Assembly: GCA_016874795.1 (NCBI GenBank)
Contig: VGTG01000041.1
Span: forward strand, 1-40,056
Direction: 5' to 3'
DNA: 40,056 nucleotides
Origin: Deltaproteobacteria bacterium
GTDB taxonomy: Bacteria; Desulfobacterota; Binatia; UBA12015
Below are positions 14,952-19,849 of the stretch, piece after piece. The position numbers and the translations under genes were made by a program. The stretch's first letter is position 1; every line of letters starts with the position of its first letter. The notes below the pieces were generated by a model. That model did not search any database and was not told the origin of the DNA. It was given only the letters and a program-made list of their open reading frames with translations.

Positions 14952-16661
14952 TCAGAACGTCGAGGAGCGGAGCTCGACGTCGGCACGCGACCAGGCGGTC
15001 GTGAACTCCGACTTCGCCTTCGCCGCCTCGTCGTTCTTGCCCTGCGCGCGCAGGCTCTCCGCGAGCCCGTACAGCGACCAGCCGTTTCCCGGGTTGATCT
15101 CGAGGTCTCTTCGGTAGACGACCTCCGCGTCCGCCGGGCGGTTCGCCGCGAGCAGCGCCGCACCGAGCGACTGGCGGACGGGGTAGTAGAACGGCGGCGG
15201 CTCCATGTAGCGGAGCTGGTCCTGCAGCGCGACCGCCTGCTCGAGCTTCGCGATCGCCGGCGCAGAGTCACCGCGCGCGGCCGCGAGCTCCGCACCGAGA
15301 ACGGCGGACTGGACGTCGAGGATGGCGCGCGCCGAGTTGACGATCTGGATCGTCCGCTCGGGCGGCGTCCTCGCGATCACGGCGTCGAGCGCCGCGAGCT
15401 CCTTCTGCGCCGCGCCCTGCTGATTCTTCCGCACGTACGCGAGGCCGCGCGCGTAGTGCCAGCTCCCCGTCGCGAAGGGCAGGTCCGCGGGCGGCGCCGG
15501 CTCCTTCAGGATGTCGTCCCAGCGCCCAAACCGCGCGAGGACGGAGTGCGGCGCGACCATGCCCGCTTCCATGTCGACCATCTGACGGACCATGTCCGCG
15601 GGCGTCGCCTTCTCGAGGTCGCGCGCCGCGCGGAGCGACTCCGCGGAGCGGCCCTCCATGCTCGCCGCGAACCAGAGGAAGTCGATGTTGTGCGGGTAGT
15701 ACATCGCGCGGTACTCGAAGCTCGGCTCGGCCTTCTCGAAGTACTCGTGATCCGCGGCGATCGCCTTGACGTTCGCCTCCGACGCCTGCGCGTAGCGGCC
15801 CGTGCGCACGTAGATGTGCGCCGGCATGTGTACGAGGTGACCCGCGCCGGGGACGAGCTTCGTCAAGCGGTCGGCGGCCCCGAGCGCGCGGCCGGGATCC
15901 TTCGAGGCTTCGACCGCGTGGATGTAGAGGTGGTTCGCACCGGGATGGTTCGGCGCGCGCTCGAGCACGCCTTCGAGCGTCGCGACGATCTCCGTCGTGT
16001 TCGGCTGCGGCTCGCCCTCGAGCGTCCAGAGGTCCCACGGACGGAGGTTCATCAGCGACTCGGCGTAGAGCGTCTGCGCGTCGACGTCGTCGGGATGGTT
16101 CGCCGCGAGCTTCTTCATCGCCGCGGCGAACGCCTCGTCGAGCGCCTTCCGGTCGCGCTTCGGATCGCTCGAGTAGCGCGTCGCGAGCGCCGCGACGAAA
16201 TCTTGCTCGACGGGGCTCGCCTTCGGCGCGAGCGCCACCGCCTTCGCGGTCGCCGCGACGGCGCGCTGGTTCCGCTCGTCGTCGATCGGGCTGTTGTAGT
16301 TCGGCCCCGCGGCGAGAGCGATGCCCCACCACGCCATCGCGGCGTTCGGGTCGAGCCGCGCGGCTTCCTGGAACGCGCGCGTCGCCTCGTGCAGGTTGAA
16401 GCCGTAGTAGAGGCGCATCCCCTGGTCGAAGTACTTCTGCGCGCGTTCGGACGAGGTCGTGATCTTCCGCTCGTGCGAGCCGAGGTTGTCGAAGAGGACG
16501 CGCGGATCCGTCGAGGCGGGAGCGGTGCTCGGTCCGCCGTGCGCGTGCTTCGGCGGATCCTGCGCCGTGGATGCCGCGAGCGGCGAGAGCAGGATCGTGC
16601 ACGCGGCGAGTGCCGCGCCTCCGGTCGTTCGTCGCACTCCGGGACGTGCTCTCTTCGTCAT
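14952..16661 (-). CDS. exported tetratricopeptide-repeat protein
   Basis: 569 residues. The N-terminus is a signal sequence with a twin-Arg near the start (KRARPGVRRTTGGAALAACTILLSP, cleavage near AASTAQ), then a His/Pro/Thr-rich spacer. TPR units are visible at FDQGMRLYYGFNLHEATRAFQEAARLDP, across residues about 165-300, and near the C-terminus (LGAALLAANRPADAEVVYRRDLEINPGNGWSLYGLAESLRAQG). A conserved HLVHMPAHIYVRTGRYAQASEAN segment with three His sits mid-protein (about 270-292) and is a signature of this unnamed family. It is probably a periplasmic scaffold; no partner is evident. The gene ends convergently beside the propeller lipoprotein gene. Confidence 0.85.
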   Translation of the reverse strand: MTKRARPGVRRTTGGAALAACTILLSPLAASTAQDPPKHAHGGPSTAPASTDPRVLFDNLGSHERKITTSSERAQKYFDQGMRLYYGFNLHEATRAFQEAARLDPNAAMAWWGIALAAGPNYNSPIDDERNQRAVAATAKAVALAPKASPVEQDFVAALATRYSSDPKRDRKALDEAFAAAMKKLAANHPDDVDAQTLYAESLMNLRPWDLWTLEGEPQPNTTEIVATLEGVLERAPNHPGANHLYIHAVEASKDPGRALGAADRLTKLVPGAGHLVHMPAHIYVRTGRYAQASEANVKAIAADHEYFEKAEPSFEYRAMYYPHNIDFLWFAASMEGRSAESLRAARDLEKATPADMVRQMVDMEAGMVAPHSVLARFGRWDDILKEPAPPADLPFATGSWHYARGLAYVRKNQQGAAQKELAALDAVIARTPPERTIQIVNSARAILDVQSAVLGAELAAARGDSAPAIAKLEQAVALQDQLRYMEPPPFYYPVRQSLGAALLAANRPADAEVVYRRDLEINPGNGWSLYGLAESLRAQGKNDEAAKAKSEFTTAWSRADVELRSSTF

Positions 16662-16735: not shown

Positions 16736-18328
16736 CTACAGCGGCGCGCCGAGGCCGCTCGAGAGGAGCTCGCCGATGCGGCGGCCGAGAGCCATCACGG
16801 TGAGCTGCGGGCTCGGACCGATCGACGCCGGAAGCAGAGACGCGTCCGCGACGTAGAGATCGCGAAGGCCATGGAGCTGCCCGGTCGCGTCGGTCACGCC
16901 TTTCTTCGGGTCGTCCGCCATGCGCGCGGTGCCGATCGGGTTCCAGCCCTCGAGCGCCAGATCGCGCGCGGGCGTGCGCGCCCCGGCGAGGGAGCGCGCT
17001 TCATCCGGCGTCGAGAGACGCGGCAGCGAGCGGATGCCCGGATAGACCTCCTCCGCGCCCGCGGCGAACGCGATCTCCGCGGCGACGCCGATCGCGCGAA
17101 GAAGACGTCGCCGGTCCGCCTCGCGCAGGCGATAGCGGATCGTGCTCGCGCGGCGCCGGCTCGCGCGAACTCGGCCGCTCGGCTCGTCGCGGATCGTCGC
17201 GGTGAACGAGGCGAGGCGTGCGATCCGGCTCATCGCTTCCTTGTGCAGCTCGCCGACGCCCGGGATCGCGGGAGCGAGGTCCTCCGGGCGCGGGAAGTGG
17301 CTGCGGATCGAGATCCCTTCCGGCTCGAGCGCGCGCACCGCGTACGCCTCGGGAACGCCGGCCCAGCCGCGTACCTCGCCGGGAAAACGTGCCGTGACGC
17401 GCGCGGTCGGATGGAGACGCAGATGTCGTCCGAGGTGCGGTCGTCCGCCGGCGAGCCCGCTTCGCGCGAGCAGCATCGGCGTGAGGAGCGACCCGCAAGC
17501 GACCACGACGCGCTCGGCGACGACGCGCAGGCGCCGGCCCGTCGGATTCCCGGCCGCGTCGACGAGCGCGCACGTGACGCCGAACGCACGGCCCTGCGAG
17601 ATCAGGAGCTCCGTCGCGCGCGCGCGCGTGTAGAGCGAAGCGCCCGCGTCGAGTGCGTCGGGAACGAAGCTCACGTGCATCGCCTGCTTCGCGTCCTGCG
17701 GACAGCCGAGGTGGCAAACGCCGGAGCCGAGGCAGCCGAGAGCCGCTCTCTTCACGCGCTCGCCCGCGTGGCCCGCGCTCTTCGCTCCGAGCTCGAGGAG
17801 CTCGCCGTTTCGTCCGAACGTCGCGTCCGGAACCGACGCGACCCCGAGCTCCTGCTCGATGCGATCGAAGTAGGGCTGGAGCGCCGCGGCGTCGAGACCC
17901 GCGAGATCGTGCTGCACCGGCCACGCGTCGAGCGCCTCGTCGGGAGGCCGCTCGCACGTCCCCGCGCCGAGGACCGTCGTGCCGCCGACGCAGCGGCCGA
18001 CCTTCAAGCCGATTGCCGTGCCGTGCGCGCGTCCGAGCGCCGCGGGCTCGCGCGCGACCGCCGCTTCCGGCTCCGCTTCGAACCCGAGGTCGCCGCCGAG
18101 ATGGTAGCCGCCCTCCTCGATCAAGATGACCGAGTGCCCGCGTCGCACGAGCTCGAATGCGGCCGAGGCGCCGCCCGCGCCGGTTCCGATGACGCAGACC
18201 TGCGCGCGATCGGACACGTCGCGCTGCAGCTCCGCGCCGTCGTGCACGCGCTCGGACGACGCGACCGCGCGCAAGCGCTCCGCACTGCGATTCGACCCCA
18301 CCCCCACACCACCTCCGAGAACCGTCAT
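16736..18328 (-). CDS. GMC-family FAD oxidoreductase (FAO/cholesterol-oxidase-like)
   Basis: 530 residues. The Rossmann FAD motif is VCVIGTGAGGASAAFELVRRG (about 44-64), followed by GRCVGGTTVLGAGT (112-124). A Cys-rich segment GCLGSGVCHLGCPQDAKQ (198-215) is shared with long-chain alcohol oxidases and related bacterial GMC proteins. The C-terminal domain has GWNPIGTARM (461-470) and LYVADASLLP...GPSPQLTVMALG. In GMC enzymes the first segment normally carries the catalytic His (HPxGT) and the second an Asn or His; here they are N463 and S506, so alcohol oxidation by the standard mechanism is doubtful. ATG 18328 overlaps the stop of the upstream membrane partner by 4 bases, so they are almost certainly made together. 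Confidence 0.88.
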   Translation of the reverse strand: MTVLGGGVGVGSNRSAERLRAVASSERVHDGAELQRDVSDRAQVCVIGTGAGGASAAFELVRRGHSVILIEEGGYHLGGDLGFEAEPEAAVAREPAALGRAHGTAIGLKVGRCVGGTTVLGAGTCERPPDEALDAWPVQHDLAGLDAAALQPYFDRIEQELGVASVPDATFGRNGELLELGAKSAGHAGERVKRAALGCLGSGVCHLGCPQDAKQAMHVSFVPDALDAGASLYTRARATELLISQGRAFGVTCALVDAAGNPTGRRLRVVAERVVVACGSLLTPMLLARSGLAGGRPHLGRHLRLHPTARVTARFPGEVRGWAGVPEAYAVRALEPEGISIRSHFPRPEDLAPAIPGVGELHKEAMSRIARLASFTATIRDEPSGRVRASRRRASTIRYRLREADRRRLLRAIGVAAEIAFAAGAEEVYPGIRSLPRLSTPDEARSLAGARTPARDLALEGWNPIGTARMADDPKKGVTDATGQLHGLRDLYVADASLLPASIGPSPQLTVMALGRRIGELLSSGLGAPL

Positions 18329-19365
18329 CGTGGCAACGGCGCTCCCGTCCGGATCAAGCGAAGCGGCGACGGACCGTCCGCGGGCTCCGCGCGCGTCATG
18401 CTGGGCTGAGCCGGCGTCGCCGCCGAGGACTCTCCTTCGCGCGACTCGCGCGACTCGCGCGTTTCGCGCGCTCCGCGCTCGACGAGCCGCGCGCGATGCG
18501 CTTCGCGGTTCGGTCCCTCCTCGAGCCGGCGCTCGAGGTGACGGCGGTCGAAGCCGATCGCGTCCTGCACGCCGTCGTCGGCGTAGAACGCGGCGAGCGT
18601 CACGTCCCTCCAACGGCGCGCGAGAGAGCGGAGCGTGACGAAGCGCGAGCCGAGGAGCCGCTCGAAAGCGCGCGCGCGGACGTCCGGCGAAGCCGTCGCG
18701 AGCGCCTCGCCGCCCTCGAGGCGGCTCGCGAGGTCGAGCGTGCGAAGCTCGAGGCGGATCCGCACCTCGCTCGCTGCACGGTCCGGACGCCGCGCGAGGA
18801 TGCGCTCGCGGAGACGCGCGTCGGCGGCTCCGATCGGAATTGCGCCGCCCTGCGGAACGATCGTCTCGAGAAGCGCCATCAAGATCGCCTCGTCGCGCTC
18901 CTCGCGCACGTCGCCCGGCGTCGCGGCGAGCCAGAGGCGAAGCCATGCGCCCGAGAAGAGCGCCGCTCCTGCGAGATCGAGAGCTGCTCCGGCGAGCGCG
19001 AGACGATCGGCTTCTCCGCCTGCGTCGTTCGCCCACGGCGAGACGATCGGCACGAGCAGCGCGATACCGGACGTCGCCGCGCCGAGCGCGAGGACCGGCA
19101 TCAGGAACGTCTCGCGGCGCGGAGCGCGCGCAATCTTCGCTGCGAGAACGGCCGCGACGACGCCGTATCCGGCCGCGAGCGGCGCCCAGCGCTCCGCTCC
19201 CGCGCCGAGATCGAGCACTCCGCCCGTCGAGCCGGCGAGCACGAGCGGGATCCCGATCGCGAAGAGCGCGAACGTCGCGGCGGCCGTTCCGAAGAGCCAG
19301 CGCAGGCGTCGTTCCAGAGCGTCGCGCACGCGCCGTCCTACCACGAAAGGCCGCCGGTTGACCAC
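18325..19365 (-). CDS. membrane-anchored partner subunit of the GMC oxidoreductase
   Basis: 346 residues from GTG 19365 (GTG 19344 is also possible). Four transmembrane segments occur in the first 150 residues (LFGTAAATFALFAIGIPLVL; APLAAGYGVVAAVLAAKIA; FLMPVLALGAATSGIALLV; LALAGAALDLAGAALFSGAW). A soluble domain (about 160-280) begins EERDEAILMALLETIVPQGG and includes FERLLGSRFVTLRSLARRWRDVTLAAFYADD. This resembles the helical domain that precedes the flavin domain in fatty-alcohol oxidases and gluconate dehydrogenase subunit 3. A low-complexity Arg/Glu/Ser tail (ARETRESRESREGESS) follows. It overlaps the GMC gene (ATGA) and should tether it to the membrane. Confidence 0.75.
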   Translation of the reverse strand: MVNRRPFVVGRRVRDALERRLRWLFGTAAATFALFAIGIPLVLAGSTGGVLDLGAGAERWAPLAAGYGVVAAVLAAKIARAPRRETFLMPVLALGAATSGIALLVPIVSPWANDAGGEADRLALAGAALDLAGAALFSGAWLRLWLAATPGDVREERDEAILMALLETIVPQGGAIPIGAADARLRERILARRPDRAASEVRIRLELRTLDLASRLEGGEALATASPDVRARAFERLLGSRFVTLRSLARRWRDVTLAAFYADDGVQDAIGFDRRHLERRLEEGPNREAHRARLVERGARETRESRESREGESSAATPAQPSMTRAEPADGPSPLRLIRTGAPLPR

Positions 19366-19417: not shown

Positions 19418-19849
19418 ATGGAAAGCGTCGGTGCACTCGCGGCGGACTCGGGGTTTCTCGTCTTCGCGCGCTTCGCGGTGATCGCCTTCTTCGCGATCGT
19501 TTTCTTGCAGTCGGGCCTGAACAAGGTCGCCGACTCGGACGGAAACCTGGCGTACCTGCAAGACCAGTTCAAGCAGGCGCCGACGCTCCAGAGCATGATC
19601 GGGTCGCTCTTCTGGGCCCTGACGGCACTCGAGCTCGTCGCCGGGGTCCTCTGCGGTCTCGCGCTGATCACCTTCAGCTTCTGGTCGGGCGGGTTCTTCG
19701 CGCGCTGGGGGATCCGCTTCGCGGTGCTGGCGCTCCTGGCGCTGCTGTTCGGCCAGCGGATGGCGAAGGACTACGCGGGGGCGGCCGTCGTCGCCTCGTA
19801 CTTCGCGGTCGCGCTGATCGGGCTCGTCGTCTTCGCGATCGGTCGTTGA
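19418..19849 (+). CDS. DoxX-like four-helix membrane protein
   Basis: 143 residues with about four hydrophobic helices: FARFAVIAFFAIVFLQSGLNK, SLFWALTALELVAGVLCGLALI, GIRFAVLALLALLFGQRMA and AAVVASYFAVALIGLVVFAI. The FLQSGLNKxxD motif at the end of helix 1 is typical of DoxX/SURF4-type proteins, which are often linked to quinone or redox chemistry. ATG 19418 follows GAGAGGAGAG closely; the overlapping ATG at 19413 is out of frame. It is divergent from the GMC operon across 52 bases, so the two units may share a promoter region; a joint redox role is inference. Confidence 0.8.
   Translation: MESVGALAADSGFLVFARFAVIAFFAIVFLQSGLNKVADSDGNLAYLQDQFKQAPTLQSMIGSLFWALTALELVAGVLCGLALITFSFWSGGFFARWGIRFAVLALLALLFGQRMAKDYAGAAVVASYFAVALIGLVVFAIGR

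Follow-up and report, generated by a model that had tools for sequence, protein, structure and literature searches.

Gene Layout

The window analyzed here is a 40,056-nucleotide stretch of contig VGTG01000041.1 from a Deltaproteobacteria bacterium (assembly GCA_016874795.1; genome G000, a draft in 360 contigs that is 96.7% complete). It contains two overlapping genes on the minus strand, one encoding a GMC (glucose-methanol-choline) flavoprotein and the other a predicted membrane partner. The flavoprotein has asparagine and serine at the two positions of the GMC catalytic pair.

The GMC gene (16736..18328, minus strand) begins with an ATG at 18328, has a stop codon ending at 16736, and encodes 530 amino acids. 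The partner gene (18325..19365, minus strand) begins with a GTG at 19365, has a stop codon ending at 18325, and encodes 346 amino acids, predicted to form a four-helix membrane anchor and a subunit-3 (hitchhiker)-like domain. The partner stop codon and the GMC start codon share the four bases ATGA (18325..18328, minus strand), an overlap that probably couples their translation. This is exactly the layout given in the initial annotation. Gene order is alike in the orthologous pairs, and 11 of 14 pairs (G103 among them) share the 4-base overlap, so the pairing is not a matter of chance. The exceptions are G001 and G044a, which have a gap, and G107, which has a 1-base overlap, figures that depend on the start codons chosen.

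Catalytic Positions of the Flavoprotein

The codon AAC at 16940..16942 (minus strand) encodes Asn463 in place of the catalytic His, and the codon AGC at 16811..16813 (minus strand) encodes Ser506 in place of the catalytic Asn. Both assignments were made with phmmer and with two family profiles. The phmmer alignment places W-N463-P-I-G-T-A-R-M opposite Y-H-P-V-G-T-V-R-M of choline oxidase and S506 opposite an Asn of the same enzyme; we take this His and Asn to be the catalytic residues of choline oxidase. A 16-row profile and an 11-row profile both place Asn463 and Ser506 on His476 and Asn519 of the Burkholderia FAD (flavin adenine dinucleotide)-glucose dehydrogenase 6a2u, described as the catalytic pair in the accessible part of PMC6719666. 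The hallmark of GMC proteins, an active-site His that is usually accompanied by a second Asn or His, is absent from the window protein, and the two replacements reported in the initial annotation are borne out in position and alignment.

In cholesterol oxidase, H447N lowers kcat 4400-fold and H447Q is 140-fold slower, according to the available text of PMC5722936. Unless some other group assists, the window enzyme should therefore carry out classical alcohol oxidation very poorly. There is precedent for a natural loss of the His: some insect GMC homologues have Ala, Leu, or Tyr in place of the C-terminal His and are inactive as hexenal isomerases; in a working hexenal isomerase, H521A keeps reduced activity and N559A loses activity (PMC13076199, from the portion available).

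Cofactor Motifs and Relatedness

The GMC protein matches the Pfam domains PF00732 (E 7.1e-42) and PF05199 (E 6.8e-22). The other features of the superfamily, namely the N and C domains, the glycine-rich FAD motif, and the fold, are all present. A search of NCBIfam gave no match near cut-off, and no signal peptide was apparent by eye. The FAD-binding glycine motif GTGAGGA comprises residues 48-54 (18167..18187, minus strand, position checked). Within it, Gly48, Gly50, Ala51, and Gly53 are invariant across 16 aligned sequences.

The protein also contains a triad of cysteines, Cys199-x5-Cys205-x3-Cys209 (17702..17734, minus strand). Both family profiles align it with Cys212, Cys218, and Cys222 of 6a2u, which hold a [3Fe-4S] cluster (PMC6719666, in the part accessible), and the three residues are predicted to be [3Fe-4S] ligands here. 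All three are retained in 16 of 16 full-length orthologues. The FAD motif and the Cys cluster are thus both intact, as first described.

When the PDB was ranked with the 16-row profile, 6a2u_B was first (E 4.9e-53), followed by fructose dehydrogenase (1.6e-42) and choline oxidase (1.7e-36). The 11-row profile, built as a control from Cys-triad-bearing relatives only, also placed 6a2u_B first (E 1.1e-27). A Foldseek search returned fructose dehydrogenase at the top (E 2.5e-27), with fructose dehydrogenase and 8grj/6a2u ahead of choline oxidase. The AlphaFold2 model of the GMC protein has a predicted local distance difference test score (pLDDT) of 77.3.

Catalytic Pair in Orthologues

Positional orthologues of the window gene, recognized by a shared gene neighborhood within the same family, are present in six genomes (G001, G002, G003, G005, G006, and G010), with those of G006 and G010 split between contigs. 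The seven proteins, window included, carry four different pairs: His/Asn in two (G001 and G003), His/Ala in three (G005, G006, and G010), Tyr/Asn in one (G002), and Asn/Ser in the window alone. Among the other six, His is therefore present in five, Asn in three, and both in two. Other families of the class have His/Asn in 10 of 10 orthologues, one of which (G050) has no partner that could be found by BLAST.

It had been asked at the outset whether Asn463 and Ser506 are conserved in orthologues that share the partner gene, and they are not. Retention of His/Asn by the orthologues, named as the finding that would speak against the unusual chemistry, applies to G001 and G003, while the other four of the six keep only one of the two residues. 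A conserved Asn/Ser signature was rejected, the combination occurring in none of the 80 other GMC proteins examined.

The window species is represented by one genome, in 360 contigs and 96.7% complete, and one or both substitutions could be assembly or consensus errors. It is unlikely, however, that two errors would fall on precisely the two catalytic codons, and related species carry other replacements at these positions, so the sites truly vary. Error is regarded as very improbable.

Classical alcohol oxidation might also persist with another polar residue as the base, for example His344, Glu126, or Glu/Asp460. All three positions differ from the 10 other-family orthologues, and in the accessible part of PMC5722936 Glu361, rather than the conserved His, is the proposed base of cholesterol oxidase. 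However, G001 and G003, which retain His463, have His344 and Glu126 as well, so these two residues did not arise as replacements for it. A substitute base of this kind is considered quite unlikely.

Evolution and Selection

In the tree, the same-family clade has support of 100/100 and the three His/Ala genes group with support of 97/96. The minimum number of changes is two at position 463 and two at position 506. On the sequences compared, the catalytic pair has varied four times in the family while the FAD and Cys motifs remained fixed.

Sixty-two columns are invariant in 13 outside sequences, and 21 of these are altered in one or more of the six family sequences, so that a change at any single one is unsurprising. 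The number of altered columns is 11 in the window sequence, 9 in G001, 9 in G002, 11 in G003, 4 in G005, and 15 in G010. These counts indicate that the pair was altered within a wider change at conserved positions and that the window sequence is no outlier. Asn121 is replaced by Gly in all six family sequences, and columns 122, 126, 340, 342, 460, and 462 are also changed; these columns, with 121, probably line the active-site pocket. Both positions of the pair are among eight columns with at least two types of replacement. The probability of this by chance is about 1.5% (28/1891), a figure that was counted post hoc and that includes three columns (92, 93, and 96) in a gappy stretch.

Such a pattern could reflect early functional decay, in which activity was lost in the window species, and perhaps in its Tyr-bearing sister, with the gene kept for an inactive or structural protein. 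Both catalytic positions are altered in one lineage, the codons AAC and AGC are each one base away from those of relatives (CAC and AAC), in a sister species the His is replaced by Tyr, and the 21 altered columns point the same way. So do the 4400-fold loss in H447N cholesterol oxidase and the inactive insect homologues with Ala, Leu, or Tyr, both as cited above from incomplete texts. However, the reading frame is intact, and the FAD and Cys motifs are unaltered.

The rates also argue against decay. In 12 Tajima relative-rate comparisons, which paired the window gene with each of three sister species and used four outgroups, the window gene is not accelerated; the smallest p value, 0.075, is in the direction of a slower window gene. 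In a codon branch model of 518 codons and five species, omega on the window branch is 0.115. A value of 1 is rejected (2dlnL 5.0, p ~0.025) and equality with the background is not (2dlnL 2.3), in a test weakened by synonymous sites that are near saturation. Omega is likewise low in the Tyr species (0.0065), a value that is unreliable because the branch length is at the limit of the script. A pseudogene is thus not supported by rate, within the power of a codon test so close to saturation. There is modest evidence that the window GMC gene is under purifying selection and is no obvious pseudogene, and decay is judged a real, if unlikely, possibility.

Membrane Partner

The AlphaFold2 model of the partner (mean pLDDT 77.7, predicted template modeling score 0.57) has helices at residues 11-43, 57-80, 88-108, and 118-148, followed by further helices. 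The four long helices at the N-terminus, with a helical domain after them, agree with the four-helix membrane protein first proposed. The subunit-3-like soluble domain proposed with it is matched more clearly in the group than in the window protein. The match of the window partner to PF13618 (Gluconate_2-dh3-like) is weak, with an E of 0.13 that is under the cut-off. Eight of 12 aligned partners, window included, match this domain at E up to 1, the best at 4.8e-6. An NCBIfam search of the partner gave no match.

Three genomes (G045, G032, and G052) encode a second GMC protein with a homologous subunit-3-like domain fused at the N-terminus. Only the G045 domain was scored, and it passes the Pfam cut-off (24.8 vs. 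23.4 bits). Fused subunit-3-like and GMC proteins at loci L039, L040, and L041 come from three genomes in which the separate anchored pair occurs too.

The mean number of Lys and Arg residues in the 12 aligned partners is 3.25 at the N-terminus and 2.83 in loop 2, and 1.00 and 0.50 in loops 1 and 3, respectively. By the positive-inside rule this suggests that the N-terminus and the helical domain are inside the cell.

Of 148 genomes of the class, 15 have a partner match at E 1e-5; some of these matches are partial, and the genomes belong to families f1, f8, f13, and f15. The partner profile was matched in 20 of 395 sampled genomes of the phylum. Of the 26 matching places listed, the window is alone in covering the profile from end to end; the match in G235 extends over positions 6-132, and all others start at position 103 or beyond. 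In seven of seven Bacteroidota loci (L104, L105, and L107-L111), the gene immediately upstream of the GMC gene is small and its product has a twin-Arg start. Two of these seven small proteins were scanned and gave no PF13618 match, and the GMC proteins of these loci do not have the Cys triad.

Other GMC Proteins and Neighboring Genes

In a wider survey, 81 of 82 GMC matches were examined (all except G015:C56). His/Asn is present in 64 of the 81, and His in 73. The eight without His have Asn (one), Tyr (one), Gln (five), or Ala (one). In the window genome itself, five other GMC C-domains, all full-length matches, keep His and Asn by eye, and two more matches, both partial, have Asp and His at the second position. 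One protein of the 81 (L143) has a His/Asp pair.

A group from family f6 of the same class (L024, L025, L027, L047, L157, and L038) has Gln (five of six) or Ala (one of six) instead of the catalytic His, and Pro instead of the Asn. The Cys triad is retained in its five complete proteins, and its deviating pair recurs across genomes, unlike that of the window. This group may be a better case for unusual GMC chemistry than the window protein.

In the window, a TPR (tetratricopeptide repeat) gene at 14952-16661 (minus strand) separates the GMC gene from the next conserved gene; in G001 nothing intervenes, and the GMC gene comes immediately after the conserved one. On the other side, a small gene at about 19418-19849 (plus strand), without a Pfam match at E 0.001, is divergent from the pair. 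It is kept beside the pair in G001, G002, G005, G006, and G010, and the contig of G003 stops there.

Comparison with Known Systems

The FAD-dependent glucose dehydrogenase of Burkholderia cepacia (6a2u; an alpha subunit, a hitchhiker gamma subunit, and a tri-heme beta subunit, per the accessible part of PMC6719666) shares with the window the GMC subunit, the Cys-x5-Cys-x3-Cys at the [3Fe-4S] positions, and, more tentatively, a subunit-3-like partner, and is the best match of both profiles. It differs in its catalytic pair, His476/Asn519 rather than Asn/Ser, and Cys213, which bridges to gamma, corresponds to Leu200 in the window protein. The small subunit of the known enzyme is a twin-arginine translocation (Tat) hitchhiker, as stated in the parts available of PMC6719666 and PMC9727119, whereas the window partner carries four membrane helices and lacks a conserved twin-Arg start, and there is no heme protein among the window open reading frames. 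Of the features of FAD/3Fe-4S dehydrogenases, the position and spacing of the Cys triad are present in the window, while a Tat small subunit and a multi-heme cytochrome c are not. With these two features absent, the small subunit weakly matched (E 0.13 for the window protein, 8 of 12 for the aligned partners, and no hitchhiker chain in structure or profile searches), and the GMC catalytic His missing, the pair is not assigned to those complexes.

Fructose dehydrogenase of Gluconobacter has a multi-heme membrane partner. Its large subunit (7w2j, 8k6k, and 8k6j) is the best Foldseek match and its Cys triad aligns, but PDB titles point to Asn1146/His1147 in the motif, so that His is kept, unlike in the window. 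The eukaryotic long-chain alcohol oxidases (FAO) have a fused subunit-3-like and GMC arrangement, and are likened by this arrangement only to the fused proteins of G045, G032, and G052.

CtFDO of Chaetomium thermophilum (His-Ser) also has Ser at the second position, and its authors report no substrate in the accessible text of PMC8171062; it keeps His and is a fungal glycoprotein. Pyridoxine 4-oxidase (3t37), listed as His-Pro in the same text, has a GMC fold and a second residue that is neither Asn nor His, but keeps His. The lepidopteran homologues of hexenal isomerase resemble the window protein in that some natural members have no C-terminal His. They are insect proteins with a non-redox isomerase activity, and the members without His are inactive in that assay (PMC13076199, as far as its available text goes).

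Proposed Function

The pair is proposed to be an FAD/iron-sulfur dehydrogenase tethered to the membrane and operating in the manner of bacterial FAD-glucose dehydrogenase, its substrate chemistry altered or slowed. The probability of this reading is put at roughly 0.5. Like the hitchhiker subunit of 6a2u, the helical domain of the partner would dock beside the [3Fe-4S] cluster. The four N-terminal helices would replace the Tat signal and hold the enzyme at the membrane, probably at its cytoplasmic face. Electrons would pass from substrate to FAD, then to the [3Fe-4S] cluster, and then to a membrane acceptor, either quinone or another carrier. The surroundings of the active site would have been remodeled in the family, such that His/Asn is no longer strictly kept and Asn/Ser is found in the window species. 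There still appears to be some selection on the protein, and so it most likely remains a redox flavoprotein, with a substrate or rate that would be independent of the classical His base. The layout of the genes, their motifs and relatedness, the residue changes, and the selection were read from the sequences themselves; the cluster, docking, topology, and membrane acceptor are putative.

Several observations weigh against this proposal. With the window protein as a single phmmer query, choline oxidase (E 9.1e-10) and cholesterol oxidase (E 2.6e-9) are the best PDB matches, and the match to 6a2u is much weaker (E 5.1e-4, over residues 40-73). Eight of the 16 rows of the larger profile (L104-L111) have no Cys triad and may bias it toward 6a2u. 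The 11-row profile puts choline dehydrogenase (1.3e-26) almost equal to 6a2u and ranks fructose dehydrogenase (4.5e-21) under choline oxidase (2.6e-22). By VIA-align, choline oxidase is the top match (Z 32.4), ahead of fructose dehydrogenase (29.4) and 6a2u (28.5). As the rankings by profile and structure are mixed, the iron-sulfur assignment rests mainly on the Cys triad. The AlphaFold2 model is of low confidence at loop 74-121 and at the cluster loop 200-217, and is therefore no test of the cluster.

The partner raises similar difficulties. Structure searches and a profile search returned common helical bundles or chance matches and no hitchhiker chain. Beyond helix 4 the sequence has more acidic than basic residues (Asp/Glu 3.42, Lys/Arg 2.58), so the topology rests on the other loops. 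A twin-Arg-like string, RRPFV, near the start of the window partner makes its Tat export possible; the string is present in 1 of the 12 aligned partners, of which at least two begin inside the protein. Transfer of electrons to the membrane, suggested in the initial annotation, is favored by the [3Fe-4S]-type Cys triad and the similarity to FAD-glucose dehydrogenase. It is disfavored by the absence of a conserved His that could serve as a heme ligand in the membrane helices of the 12 aligned partners, and by the absence of CxxCH from all 197 open reading frames of at least 60 amino acids in the 40-kb window. The cost of the equivalent His-to-Asn change to cholesterol oxidase, 4400-fold in kcat in the part of PMC5722936 available, bears on the chemistry itself.

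The window protein looks like a locally drifting or re-purposed form of a known electron-passing enzyme type. A further suggestion, which is held to be doubtful, is that the module gave up His-dependent hydride transfer in this family and became another flavin/iron-sulfur device, either for new substrate chemistry or as an electron relay, with the pair free to vary and the cofactor sites fixed.

In this family the catalytic pair has been altered repeatedly, while the partner gene and the motifs for FAD and Cys have been kept, and a single genomic position holds orthologues with His/Asn, His/Ala, Tyr/Asn, or Asn/Ser. Such a set is a natural comparison for asking what the catalytic pair is needed for. 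None of the open-access papers listed by the literature searches was seen to describe a membrane-anchored hitchhiker subunit; the exact phrase was not searched for. A membrane-anchored, hitchhiker-like subunit would be another route by which an enzyme of this kind is placed at the membrane, probably on the cytoplasmic side.

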